Positions 9,693-57,176 of a stretch of DNA of 64,000 bases are shown here, one piece after another. Both the position numbers and the translations under genes were made by a program. The DNA is from Jiella sonneratiae. GTDB taxonomy: Bacteria > Pseudomonadota > Alphaproteobacteria > Rhizobiales > Rhizobiaceae. Location: assembly GCF_017353515.1 (NCBI RefSeq), contig NZ_JAFMPY010000022.1:1-64000 (forward strand), in the 5' to 3' direction. The notes below the pieces were generated by a model. It had not been told where the DNA came from. It made no database searches and saw nothing but the letters and a program-made list of their open reading frames with translations. The first letter of the stretch is position 1; each line of letters starts with the position of its first letter.

Positions 9693-11042
9693 TCACCGGT
9701 TTTCCTGCCGCAGCGACGGAAACAGCTGGGGAAGCAGCGCCAGAAAATCCCGGCCGACGAGGCTGCGGGCGCGGGCGAGCAGCAGCGGCACCGGGCTCGA
9801 CGGTTCGCTCTTGTGGAAATACGCCTCGACGCTGGCGACCAGCGCAGTCGCCGCTTCGCGGGTCGACGCGGCGAAGGTGGTCTCCGCGGGCCGGGACGGC
9901 GGATCCTGCGACGATGCCGGGGACGCTCCGCAGGCGCCGGGCTGAAGCGCGGCCTCGCCGAGGCTGGCGAGCCGGCCGAGGTCGAGCGCGAAGCCGGCCG
10001 GCCCGCCGACGTCCAGCGAGGCGGAGACGGCGAGGTTCGGCGCCAGAACCTGCAACGCCTCGACCAGCGGCCGGCCGATCAGCGTGCGGGCCTGATGGAT
10101 CAGGAGAAGGGCCGGCGAGGAGGGTTCGACGCCGGCGAAATAGGCCTCCGCCGCCACGAGGGCCTCTGCGGCCTGACGGTGGTCGGCGATCGGGACCGTC
10201 GCGATCGCCGCGGCCGGCCGGAGCGCCGGATCCGGTGCGGCAATCCGTTCGGGGGCGGCCGGGTCGGTGTCCGAAGCGGCGCCGGCGGAAGGGGCGCTGC
10301 CCCGCGCCTCGTCGATCAGCGCGAGGATCCGCGCGACCGTCGCGAGAAAGGTCTTCATCTGCGGGGCAGCGCCGGCTTCGCCGTTCTCCGCGAAGGCCGC
10401 CCGCACCGCCCCGAAGGCGTCACGGGTCGCGGCGAGGGCGCCTCGCGCCGCGTCGACGGCGGCGGCGTTCGCGGCATCGGCCAAAGCGGAGCGGATGGTC
10501 GCTTCGTCCGGTGTGCGCTCGCCTTCCGGTCCGGCGGCCTCGCCGGTGGCGACGAGGAAGTCGCGGAAGCGGATGGCCCCGGCCCGCCGATCGCGGAGGA
10601 GCGGCACGAACTGCAGCGGGATCGATCCGGAAACCGGCGGCTCGAAACTTTCGAACTCGCCGCGGCGCTGCGCGACGTCGCGCGGGTGGGCGCTTCCCCA
10701 GCGCGTCGCGAGAAGTTCGGCGGAAAGGCCGATCGCCCCGGCGAGGCCCGGCAGGTCGCCGGCGAGGAGGCGCAGCCGGGCGTCGATCAGGAGAAAGCGC
10801 AGATCCCGCGAACGTTCGAGCAGGCGCGCGAGGGTCTTCGCCTCCTCCGCCGGCCGGATGTCGCGCGGCTCGAAGGGCTGGCCGTCCTCGCGCATCAGAC
10901 GGCCGCCCGCCATGCGGACGGGAAGGAGGCCCTCCAGCCGGTCGCGGAACGTCAGGAAGCCGGCGTCGTCCGCCGCGACCAGGTCGGGGCCGCAGGGCGC
11001 TTCGTCGGACAGCGGCTGCAGGATCAGGGTGCGATCGGCCAT
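9693..11042 (-). CDS. tssA: T6SS assembly protein TssA (ImpA_N domain)
   Basis: TssA proteins cap the growing sheath or organise the baseplate during assembly. The 449-residue product has an ImpA_N domain at residues 8-150 (PLSDEAPCGPDLVAADDAGF; LLIDARLRLL; LPLQF-like IPLQFVPLL). An Ala-rich helical middle follows. The C-terminal family motif, EAYF-x4-EPSSP-x4-L, occurs twice, at residues 289-336 and 395-442, about half identical. Most TssA proteins I recall of this type end in one such copy. It begins the sheath genes, 39 bases after the OmpA-domain gene. Confidence 0.9.
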   Translation of the reverse strand: MADRTLILQPLSDEAPCGPDLVAADDAGFLTFRDRLEGLLPVRMAGGRLMREDGQPFEPRDIRPAEEAKTLARLLERSRDLRFLLIDARLRLLAGDLPGLAGAIGLSAELLATRWGSAHPRDVAQRRGEFESFEPPVSGSIPLQFVPLLRDRRAGAIRFRDFLVATGEAAGPEGERTPDEATIRSALADAANAAAVDAARGALAATRDAFGAVRAAFAENGEAGAAPQMKTFLATVARILALIDEARGSAPSAGAASDTDPAAPERIAAPDPALRPAAAIATVPIADHRQAAEALVAAEAYFAGVEPSSPALLLIHQARTLIGRPLVEALQVLAPNLAVSASLDVGGPAGFALDLGRLASLGEAALQPGACGASPASSQDPPSRPAETTFAASTREAATALVASVEAYFHKSEPSSPVPLLLARARSLVGRDFLALLPQLFPSLRQENR

Positions 11043-11081
11043 GGCTCAGCCCGAGGCGGCGTCGACGATGCCCGCCCGCCG

Positions 11082-11648
11082 CTACTGCACGCTGACGCGC
11101 ATCTCGACCCGGCGGTTGACGGGATCGTAGGGATCGGAAACCCGCGGCACCCGCTCGCCGAGGCCGGCCGCCTCGATCTTGGCGGGATCGATGCCGAGTG
11201 CGAGGAGATAGGCCCGCACCGATTCGGCGCGCCGTCGCGACAGTTCCTCGTTGTACCAGTCGGTGCCGCGGGCGTCGGTGTGGCCCTCGACGACGAAGCG
11301 CATGGCGCTGAGCCGCCGGTCCGCCAGAGCCGCGGCCATCTCCCGCAGGTTGTCGCGCGCGGCAAGGCTCAGCGTCGCCGAATCGAGATCGAAGTTGATC
11401 AGCATGTCGAAACCCTTCGGCCGCGCCTTCGCCCGGCACTCGGATTCGAGGCCGACGCAGATGCCGCGGGTGTTGGCGAAGCGCATCGAGCGGGTCTTGC
11501 CGAGGGCGGGCCCGTCCCCGGCGGATTTGGCGAAGAAGTCGACGACCTCGCGGCGGTCATAGGCCGGATCGGCGGCCGCAGAACCCGCTGCTGCAAGGAC
11601 GATCGCCGCGACCAGAAGGCTGGTTGCCCGGAGCCAACGGAACGTCAT
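11082..11648 (-). CDS. OmpA-domain protein, first gene of the T6SS operon
   Basis: Predicted exported protein of 188 residues: a signal peptide (LRATSLLVAAIVLAAAGSAAA, cleavage after about residue 26), a short linker, then an OmpA/MotB-type peptidoglycan-binding domain with FDLDSATLS, VEGHTDARGTDWYNEELS and the closing NRRVEMRVS. OmpA-type domains in T6SS clusters anchor the machine to peptidoglycan, either fused to TssL or as a separate TagL/TagN-like protein; a periplasmic anchoring role is inferred. Its ATG follows a GGAGGGGG ribosome-binding site. It is transcribed first, from the duplicated promoter region immediately upstream. Confidence 0.85.
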   Translation of the reverse strand: MTFRWLRATSLLVAAIVLAAAGSAAADPAYDRREVVDFFAKSAGDGPALGKTRSMRFANTRGICVGLESECRAKARPKGFDMLINFDLDSATLSLAARDNLREMAAALADRRLSAMRFVVEGHTDARGTDWYNEELSRRRAESVRAYLLALGIDPAKIEAAGLGERVPRVSDPYDPVNRRVEMRVSVQ

Positions 11649-11683
11649 GACACCCCCTCCGTCGATGACGGAATTGCTCGGAA

Positions 11684-11723
11684 AGATTGCAGCAATCTAA
11701 TTCGACGCAATCAAAGGTGTCAA
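11684..11723 (-). promoter_or_regulatory. Proximal T6SS promoter with palindrome over the -10
   Basis: On the minus strand, TTGACA (11718-11723) is separated by exactly 17 bases from TTAGAT (11695-11700), a strong sigma70-like match. The palindrome AGATTGC-T-GCAATCT (11684-11698) overlaps the -10 and start region, a usual place for a repressor operator. The OmpA-domain gene starts about 47 bases downstream of the -10. Sequence match only. Confidence 0.7.
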
Positions 11724-11921
11724 CGACGGCGACGCCTGCAACCGCGCGGTCGAGCCGCTGCGGCAGGCGTGATCCGGCCGGCTGCCGGGGATAGGAGAGG
11801 GGAAACGAGACGCTGCCGGGCAGTTCGACCGTCCCGGCGCTCTCGTCAGGCCTGGCGCGGCCCGAGTTCGGCGTAGGCCGGGAACGTCTCCCCCCTCCGT
11901 CGATGACGGAATTGCTCGGAA

Positions 11922-11961
11922 AGATTGCAGCAATCTAATTCGACGCAATCAAAGGTGTCAA
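11922..11961 (-). promoter_or_regulatory. Distal, duplicated copy of the T6SS promoter and palindrome
   Basis: Identical copy of the proximal promoter, displaced by 238 bases: TTGACA at 11956-11961, TTAGAT at 11933-11938, and the same 7-bp-arm palindrome at 11922-11936. None of the five differences between the duplicate units falls in these elements, so both should be equally functional, giving two tandem promoters and two operator sites. Confidence 0.65.
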
Positions 11962-12083
11962 CGACGGCGACGCCTGCAACCGAGCGGTCGAGCCGCTGCG
12001 GCAGGCGTGGTCCGGCCGGCTGCCGGGGATAGCAGAGGGGAAACGAGACGCTGCCGGGCAGTTCGACCGGCCCGGCGCTCCCG

Positions 12084-12683
12084 TCAGGCCTGGCGCGGCC
12101 CGAGTTCGGCGTAGGCCGGGAACGTCTCGGCGAAGCTTTGCAGCCACGCCGCCAGAGCCGGGCGCTCGGCCTCGAGTTTGCCGGCGAAGCGGAAGGACAT
12201 CCAGCCGAGCAGCCCGGCGACGGCGAAATGCGCCGTCGTCGGTCCCTCGGGAAGATCTTCGATCTGGCCCTCGAGCACTTCCAGCCCGCGGTCCGCCTTG
12301 CGCATCTGCTTGTCGACCCAGGGCTGGTGCCGCCTGTCGGCGGGCCTGTAGCGCTCCTCGTAGAGGACGAGGATCAGCGCGTCGCCGATCCCGTCGGCGG
12401 TCGCTTCCGCGAGCTTGACCTTCGTCCAGTCCTCGAGGGTCTGGGGCACCAGCTGGCCGCCGGTCAGCTTGTCGAAATAATCGCAGATCGTCCTTGAATC
12501 GTAGAGCGCCGTGCCGTCGTCGAGGACCACGGCCGGGATCTTGCCGAGCGGGTTGCTGGCGAGGAGATCGGCCGGCTCGGCCTTGGTGTCGGTGTCGACG
12601 CTCTCGAGTTCGAGGCCGCAATGGCTCGCGGCCATGCGGACCTTCGCCGCGAAGGGGGAGGCGGGCGAATAGAAGATGCGCAT
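12084..12683 (-). CDS. Glutathione S-transferase family protein
   Basis: Cytosolic GST-fold enzyme, 199 residues. The N-terminal thioredoxin-like domain begins MRIFYSPASPFAAKVRMAA, has NPLGKIPAVVLDDG with the cis-proline loop and SRTICDYFD for glutathione contact; the helical C-domain follows to about residue 195. The substrate cannot be read from sequence. The ATG at 12683 fits the fold; upstream frame extension overlaps the next gene. Its last 15 codons are part of the 238-bp tandem duplication and occur again, detached, just downstream. Confidence 0.88.
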   Translation of the reverse strand: MRIFYSPASPFAAKVRMAASHCGLELESVDTDTKAEPADLLASNPLGKIPAVVLDDGTALYDSRTICDYFDKLTGGQLVPQTLEDWTKVKLAEATADGIGDALILVLYEERYRPADRRHQPWVDKQMRKADRGLEVLEGQIEDLPEGPTTAHFAVAGLLGWMSFRFAGKLEAERPALAAWLQSFAETFPAYAELGPRQA

Positions 12684-12705
12684 CGAGGCGATCCCGGCTG
12701 GAGGG

Positions 12706-13257
12706 TCAGTATTTCGAGACGTAGCCGGGGTAGGAACCCGTCGCCGCATCGGGCGGATAGCGGCGCAGCGACTGGCAGTTGGCGCCATAGACGTGCCACT
12801 CGTCGAGCCCGAGGACGCAGCCCTCGGCCTTCCACGCCTTCACCGGCGAGAACAGGCCGAGATAGTCGCCGGCGGCGGCGTATCCCATCGGATATTCGAC
12901 GACGTAGTAGACCGTGCGCCACTTCTGGTCGGAGATCAGCGCCTTGGCCTGGCAGTAGCGTCGTTCGATCGGGTTCGGCGCCGGATAGGGATCGTCGAGG
13001 AGCTGCGGCTGGTAAGCCTTTTCGAACATGCCGCGGAATTCGAGGATCGACAGTTCGGCTTCGAGCATGCGCGGCGCGCCGTATTCGAACTGGTCCTCGA
13101 CCTCGCCGAGAACCGCCGGATCGTCGCAGGCCGGAACCTTCGCGGGGATCGTCTCGGTGCGGTAGCTCTCCATGACGTCCGCGGCGCCGGCGGGTTGCGA
13201 GGCGAGGGCGGCGGAGGCGGCGCCAAGGGTCAGGACGATGGCCGAAAGCCGGTTCAT
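12706..13257 (-). CDS. Secreted protein of unknown function
   Basis: A 183-residue product with a clear signal peptide (MNRLSAIVLTLGAASAALAS, cleavage near residue 27 after AGA). The mature part is aromatic and acidic, with two or more cysteines (CDDPAVLG, RRYCQAKALI, GCVLGLDEW, GANCQSL) that could form disulphides in the periplasm, and the block WRTVYYVVEYPMGYAAAGDY. I do not recognise the family. It precedes the GST gene by 22 bases and could be cotranscribed. Confidence 0.75.
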   Translation of the reverse strand: MNRLSAIVLTLGAASAALASQPAGAADVMESYRTETIPAKVPACDDPAVLGEVEDQFEYGAPRMLEAELSILEFRGMFEKAYQPQLLDDPYPAPNPIERRYCQAKALISDQKWRTVYYVVEYPMGYAAAGDYLGLFSPVKAWKAEGCVLGLDEWHVYGANCQSLRRYPPDAATGSYPGYVSKY

Positions 13258-42668: not shown

Positions 42669-42692
42669 ATAACGGATTATATAACGGATTAT
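42669..42692. promoter_or_regulatory. Tandem 12-bp repeat upstream of marR
   Basis: ATAACGGATTAT occurs twice, back to back (42669-42680 and 42681-42692). Each copy is a short palindrome ATAA-N4-TTAT in AT-rich DNA 18 bases before the marR ATG. MarR proteins usually repress their own operon by binding palindromes of this kind, so this is a candidate autoregulatory operator. Confidence 0.55.
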
Positions 42693-42710
42693 GTAAACGG
42701 AGCGGGTCGC

Positions 42711-56668: not shown

Positions 56669-57176
56669 ACGCCTCGAGCCGCGTGGGACGGGGCAGGCTG
56701 GCGCCGCCGCGCCGCCGGCCGGCCTTTGCTGCCGGCCGGCCTTTGCTGCCGGCAAGTCGTCTCGACCGGACAGGCGTCGCCGCCAAATGGACGGTCCGTT
56801 TACTTTTCGTAAACCGCCGTCGGCGCGGCGTTTCGGTCGGCACGCGGTTGCCCGGCCGGAAACGCTCCCTTAATCGCGATCGCCGAAAGCTTCGCGGAGC
56901 CCTGCAAGGTGGCAGGCGCCGTTACGTGAACCTTATGCATTGGCGGACATTCTAGCCCTCGTATCACGGCTTTCGGATCACTAGATCCGCGCAACGAAAG
57001 GGTATATCGACGCCGCGCGCCGACAGGACGGCGCCCGCGGCTGGGCGTCTGCCAGCGATCTGCCGGAATGCCGCTTTCGCGCAACTCACCGAACCATCGA
57101 CCAACAAGCAAGTTCGGGCCGAACGCCCCGTCGCCGTTCGCCCTGTAACGGAGTGCGGCCATTCGGCCGTTCGATC
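56669..57176. other. 508-base gap before kup, with a 17-bp tandem repeat
   Basis: Contains GCCGGCCGGCCTTTGCT twice in tandem (56714-56730, 56731-56747) plus six bases of a third copy. The remainder has no coding potential or RNA structure I can support. It must include the kup promoter; no strong match was found. Confidence 0.6.

Follow-up and report, generated by a model that had tools for sequence, protein, structure and literature searches.

Tandem duplication of a 238-bp unit carrying a putative promoter upstream of a type VI secretion operon in Jiella sonneratiae

A preliminary description of a Jiella sonneratiae contig had reported a 238-bp unit present twice, head to tail and with five substitutions, in front of a type VI secretion system (T6SS) operon. 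This locus raises the question of whether the operon has acquired a regulatory device, such as a reversible copy-number switch, or is preceded by an ordinary duplication of little consequence. The window analyzed here is the whole stretch of 64,000 nucleotides formed by positions 1 to 64,000 of contig NZ_JAFMPY010000022.1, and coordinates given without a further label refer to it.

Structure of the duplicated region

A repeat search of the window identified one repeat family, consisting of a unit of 238 nt in two copies with a spacing of 238 and an identity of 98%. The same array was reported by TRF (11653–12128; period 238, 2.0 copies, 97% match, 0% indel, score 917), with the second-best score among its 13 rows for the window being 87. 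Alignment of the copies gave five substitutions (11745/11983, 11772/12010, 11795/12033, 11832/12070 and 11843/12081) and no indels, a divergence of 2.1%, with a longest identical run of 92 bp. The duplication is real and is confirmed at the sequence level, in the form first reported; with two adjacent copies in the same orientation it is a simple tandem duplication, and the unit was found at a single place in the 5.15-Mb genome. Read on the minus strand, the unit opens with the final 45 bp of the GST gene and ends in the ribosome-binding site that serves the OmpA-family gene, with the following features:

11082–11648, minus strand: first gene of the operon, OmpA-family protein of 188 aa (PF00691, E 2.3e-19)
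11653–11660, minus strand: ribosome-binding site GGAGGGGG of the OmpA-family gene (by inspection)
11653–11890, minus strand: copy 1, proximal to the T6SS operon, with SD, promoter, spacer and GST 3'-end relic (repeat search, TRF, copy alignment)
11846–11890, minus strand: relic of the GST 3' end, 45 bp, a copy of 12084–12128 (sequence, copy alignment)
11891–11898, minus strand: duplicate ribosome-binding site, an orphan with no start codon after it (start-codon scan)
11891–12128, minus strand: copy 2, distal, repeating the unit of copy 1 and holding the real GST 3' end (repeat search, TRF, copy alignment)
12084–12683, minus strand: GST gene, 199 aa, intact (PF13409 and PF13417)

The position of the unit directly upstream of a T6SS operon was borne out by Pfam, which identified OmpA, ImpA_N (TssA), VipA (TssB), VipB (TssC), Hcp, gp25 (TssE) and TssF, with TssG and a ClpB/ClpV-type AAA+ ATPase as further members. 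The gene order on the minus strand is the OmpA-family gene followed by tssA, tssB, tssC, hcp, tssE, tssF, tssG and a clpV-like gene. On the other side the GST gene is unharmed, as had been proposed, its reading frame ending undamaged within copy 2.

An assembly artefact concealing a true state of one copy would be in keeping with the draft status of the source assembly (76 contigs, 5.15 Mb in total). However, five substitutions set the copies apart, so that reads or k-mers longer than 92 bp resolve them, and a collapse error gives fewer copies rather than two different ones. Given the five differences and the lack of a shared run longer than 92 bp, an assembly error is unlikely, and a true single copy is hardly to be expected.

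A duplicated structured RNA element (riboswitch or sRNA) was rejected as the nature of the unit, since Rfam gave no match inside 11653–12128, its sole match (E 0.11) lying outside the repeat and far under the gathering score. When folding was compared with shuffles, the two GST-end stretches did somewhat better than these (z-scores of −2.20 and −2.05) and the two promoter-leader stretches less so (−1.48 and −1.27).

Comparison with related loci

Nine other Jiella genomes were sampled, and the OmpA-family gene was found at E ≤ 1e-30 in seven of the ten, that of J. sonneratiae included; the closest named loci are those of Jiella pacifica, J. avicenniae and J. pelagia. A search of the family matched 39 of 394 genomes, with the best 30 of these 39 taken as loci. 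The 32 other rows so obtained represent 31 distinct loci, as L035 (Mesorhizobium alhagi) and L046 have the same sequence over 1300 bp, and the 32 orthologous loci used below comprise the one under study, six from other Jiella, one from the same order and 24 from the family, the comparison being one genome per species.

An ungapped self-similarity scan of about 700 bp upstream of the gene, with shifts of 20–379 bp, detected the 238-bp repeat only in J. sonneratiae and in none of the 31 distinct other loci. The comparison of the junction in relatives, which the preliminary description had called for, therefore showed the duplication to be absent from all six other Jiella loci, and a single copy in the 31 other loci is what is expected if the doubled state is derived. 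Polarizing the five substitutions by means of these relatives failed because the spacer aligns poorly with them.

A counterpart of the GST protein with 78–79% identity lies in the same place in Jiella genomes G001, G003 and G006. It was also observed that the region upstream of the operon occurs in two arrangements: the GST gene and a gene for a 243-aa protein are found there in J. sonneratiae, G001, G003 and G006, and a different stretch, mutually similar, coding-looking by eye and without a GST match, is found in G004, G005 and G007.

Promoter prediction

Each copy of the unit contains, as had been proposed, a promoter sequence on the minus strand that reads toward the T6SS operon:

11695–11723, minus strand (read from 11723 to 11695): proximal promoter TTGACA-N17-TTAGAT, with TTGACA-N18-TAGATT (11694–11723) as an alternative (sequence, consensus scan, genus conservation)
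11933–11961, minus strand (read from 11961 to 11933): distal promoter, identical in sequence to the proximal one (sequence, consensus scan)

A consensus scan of 11000–12800 detected two TTGACA-N18-TAGATT sites against 0.2 expected from shuffles. The heptamer TTGACAC lies upstream of the OmpA-family gene in all seven Jiella loci that have the gene, and an ungapped comparison of these seven promoters showed no variation at columns 0–6 (TTGACAC), at three columns of the −10 region (24, T; 27, A; 28, T) or at three of the spacer (11, G; 14, T; 15, G). Alignment with the three relatives sharing the GST gene is poor over most of the stretch from the GST stop to the promoter. Beyond the genus, TTGACA was present within the 315-bp upstream stretch in 21 of the 32 orthologous loci and absent in 11; 200 mononucleotide shuffles gave a mean of 1.8 and a maximum of 7, and the opposite strand gave 1 of 32. 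In 19 of the 32 the hexamer was accompanied by a T....T hexamer at 16–18 nt. On these comparisons the promoter is credible and is conserved across the genus.

Two promoter sequences reading into one operon constitute a tandem promoter at the level of sequence, and a scan of 11000–12800 found no intrinsic terminator (0.9 expected in shuffles). Both promoters would read into the operon, the leader measuring about 40 nt from the proximal one and about 238 nt more from the distal one. The distal transcript would start in copy 2 and reach the same operon after traversing the orphan SD, the relic of GST and the proximal promoter with its operator candidate. Over the 191 nt that follow the distal −10 region there is no ATG, GTG or TTG. 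A new upstream reading frame was considered and rejected, the later TTG and GTG frames being at most 21 codons long and lying within the leader. Most likely the second promoter, being under the same regulator, would alter T6SS expression additively and to a modest extent; that both promoters fire, where transcription starts and how large the effect is are what we infer from the sequence.

The operator candidate

The preliminary description had also noted a palindrome overlapping the promoter. Two nested inverted repeats were located in each copy:

11685–11712, no strand: operator candidate, dyad GATTGC-N16-GCAATC over the −10 region, copy 1 (exact-match search)
11923–11950, no strand: the same dyad, copy 2 (exact-match search)
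11684–11698, no strand: short palindrome AGATTGC-T-GCAATCT, copy 1 (genome search)
11922–11936, no strand: the same palindrome, copy 2 (genome search)

Both copies thus contain the short palindrome, and a search of the 5.15-Mb genome that allowed one mismatch gave no further site; even the looser form ATTGC-N0-3-GCAAT was missing from eight other loci (L003–L010). As a conserved operator the short palindrome was rejected, as it was not found in the other loci scanned and the wider dyad is the common one. GATTGC-N16-GCAATC is exact in three of the seven Jiella loci (J. sonneratiae, G001 and G003) and, by inspection, has one mismatch in G006; of its halves, the left is exact in G004 and has one mismatch in G005, and neither was seen in G007. 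In J. sonneratiae (both copies), G001 and G003 the exact dyad is confined to the T6SS promoter. Single exact matches in G005, G006 and G007 do not share a contig with the operon, and one further match occurs in G009, which is without an OmpA-family gene at E ≤ 1e-30; these stray matches look like chance.

The best inverted repeat of each promoter was compared with mononucleotide shuffles. It exceeded them in G001 (0 of 500), in G003 (0.002) and also in J. sonneratiae (0.026), there with the short palindrome and not with the wide dyad. It was no better than shuffles in G004 (0.138), G005 (0.96), G006 (0.454) and G007 (0.436). In the G007 promoter (locus L007) GCGTG-N17-CACGC stands in place of the GATTGC/GCAATC dyad, a possible case of altered operator specificity that is not significant alone (the 0.436 above).

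Overlapping the −10 region, the dyad GATTGC-N16-GCAATC is a specific and testable candidate for the operator of this T6SS operon in part of the genus; a regulator would presumably bind it. It is conceivable that two such operators 238 bp apart act by looping, by cooperative binding or by titration of the regulator, and the dyad is indeed specific to the T6SS promoter in its own genome, and doubled. However, at 10.5 bp per turn the spacing of 238 bp corresponds to about 22.7 turns, which would put the sites on different faces of the helix and hence disfavors looping, and two sites are a small dose for titration. A function of this kind is regarded as very improbable.

Other tandem arrays in the genome

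The survey of arrays covered 2.43 of the 5.15 Mb (the window and 120 stretches, including 1,827 N bases), with the ends of the 20-kb stretches being places where arrays may be hidden. TRF returned 19 rows with a period of at least 60, six of them inside reading frames predicted by a simple GC3 test. Five other arrays lie in spacers of the J. sonneratiae genome:

L087, 13608–14067: spacer array
L091, 13521–13778: spacer array
L094, 8763–8960: spacer array
L108, 13849–14205: spacer array
L134, 13692–14393: spacer array

Of the other eight rows one is the window array; the remaining seven (L089, L095, L111, L129, L160 twice and L176) are less alike, unclear or placed at a contig end. The five spacer arrays resemble the window array in the size of their units (111–250 bp, in 1.8–2.8 copies with 91–97% match). 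They differ in their position, all five coming after the 3' end of a gene and four of them being flanked by convergent genes, in that all have REP-like palindromes, and in the lack of a promoter-like site. Counted with six REP-like words picked by eye, the palindromes number 2–5 in each of the five and none in the window array, and interpretation of the latter as a REP-type spacer duplication was rejected, its unit being without them.

By the consensus rule of the promoter scan above, the window array has two promoter-like sites, and the other 12 non-coding or unclear arrays have none. Such sites are rare (0.07 per kb over 2.37 Mb of stretches), so that most arrays are expected to lack a promoter by chance. 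From the five other spacer arrays it follows that duplication of such size is routine in this genome, which seems prone to duplicating spacers; the doubled promoter is the unusual part, and the kind of mutation is ordinary.

Further repeats were seen in the course of this survey. L089 has at 1–2004, the start of contig C19, a 716-bp unit in 2.8 tandem copies with 94% match, beginning at the contig end. A 141-bp unit repeated 5.7 times in L171 (11295–12097) lies within a 751-codon reading frame and is probably an in-frame protein repeat. In the window, an AT-rich 12-bp unit ATAACGGATTAT is repeated 2.7 times at 42669–42701 and could be an operator array, and a perfect 17-bp repeat GCCGGCCGGCCTTTGCT occurs 2.4 times at 56714–56753.

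Origin, persistence and constraint

The array is exactly 2 × 238 bp long; the bases preceding the two copies differ (A, C), as do those following them (C, G). A comparison of the bases flanking both copies found no microhomology left at the junction, which therefore points to an origin by illegitimate joining and not by homologous recombination. It is proposed that a single illegitimate tandem duplication in this one Jiella lineage joined the ribosome-binding site of the operon to the GST 3' end, and in doing so would have copied the evident promoter of the operon together with the operator candidate.

It had been suggested that the repeat is a reversible copy-number switch. Tandem repeats do gain and lose units by recombination (PMC12607827), and recombination could remove one unit here. 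However, the junction is without microhomology, so the step from one copy to two is not readily repeated; with no shared bases at the breakpoints it would take another illegitimate joining. The longest identical run is 92 bp. To judge from the five substitutions, the copies have probably persisted as a pair, which would not have passed through a one-copy state since these substitutions arose. The junction homology and near-identical copies that would mark a switch easily reversible in both directions were not found, and the suggestion was abandoned as extremely unlikely.

In engineered tandem duplications of Pseudomonas aeruginosa, shorter repeats are lost more slowly, the rate being about 1e-4 per generation at 2.6 kb, the shortest length tested (PMC12607827). 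If this trend extends to 238 bp, the persistence of the pair would be explained by the slow loss and small cost of a short repeat whose copies have diverged slightly.

A further explanation is that the duplication was selected since two promoters raise T6SS expression by dosage. The promoter blocks are identical between the copies and the middle has drifted, and this array is the sole one with promoter-like sites among the 13 scanned. However, with five substitutions placed uniformly on 238 bp, the probability that none falls in the 92-bp block of SD and promoter is 0.087, and for the 40-bp core of promoter and dyad it is 0.40, so that identical promoter blocks argue only weakly for selection. 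The genome also has similar arrays without promoter-like sites, and the repeat is in none of the 31 other loci. Selection for dosage is accordingly judged unlikely, with some weight left to it. All five substitutions fall within a central segment of 99 bp (0.012 if placed uniformly, a post hoc value). This confinement, the best hint of constraint, could mean that both ends are constrained, but partial conversion or chance could also account for it. A broader proposal is that the doubled promoter and its dedicated operator form a selected regulatory innovation of this one Jiella lineage that resets expression or the response to a repressor, with selection on both promoter blocks and the rest drifting; this is thought quite unlikely.

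The preferred reading is a near-neutral tandem duplication with two usable promoters and a modest dosage effect, to which a probability of roughly two in three is given. The locus looks like a chance duplication of an ordinary kind, which may slightly change expression, and not like a special switch.

Comparison with known systems

In Mycobacterium, intergenic repeats of the VNTR/MIRU type lie near promoters, vary in copy number among strains and form dispersed families. The Jiella array is similar in being a tandem unit between genes and differs in that its unit is found at a single place. The rsmX-2 gene of Pseudomonas brassicacearum arose by duplication of rsmX-1 (PMC7911923). That case is likewise a lineage-specific duplication of a short expressed region, but there an sRNA gene was doubled, whereas in Jiella only a promoter, a leader and a 45-bp gene relic were.

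Judged by titles and the beginnings of abstracts, none of the open-licence PMC papers retrieved on tandem or promoter duplication describes a duplicated T6SS promoter, and nothing was found there on Jiella together with type VI secretion. The present locus provides a clean natural duplication of a promoter ahead of an operon for a costly antagonistic function, and six sister genomes supply orthologs with a single copy for comparison. In a review of the Agrobacterium tumefaciens T6SS (PMC10482370), the terms "tandem" and "duplicat" are absent. The same source describes control of that system by ExoR-ChvG/ChvI, and the likeness lies in an alphaproteobacterial T6SS under transcriptional control. 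By analogy, ChvI is one candidate type of regulator for the Jiella dyad.
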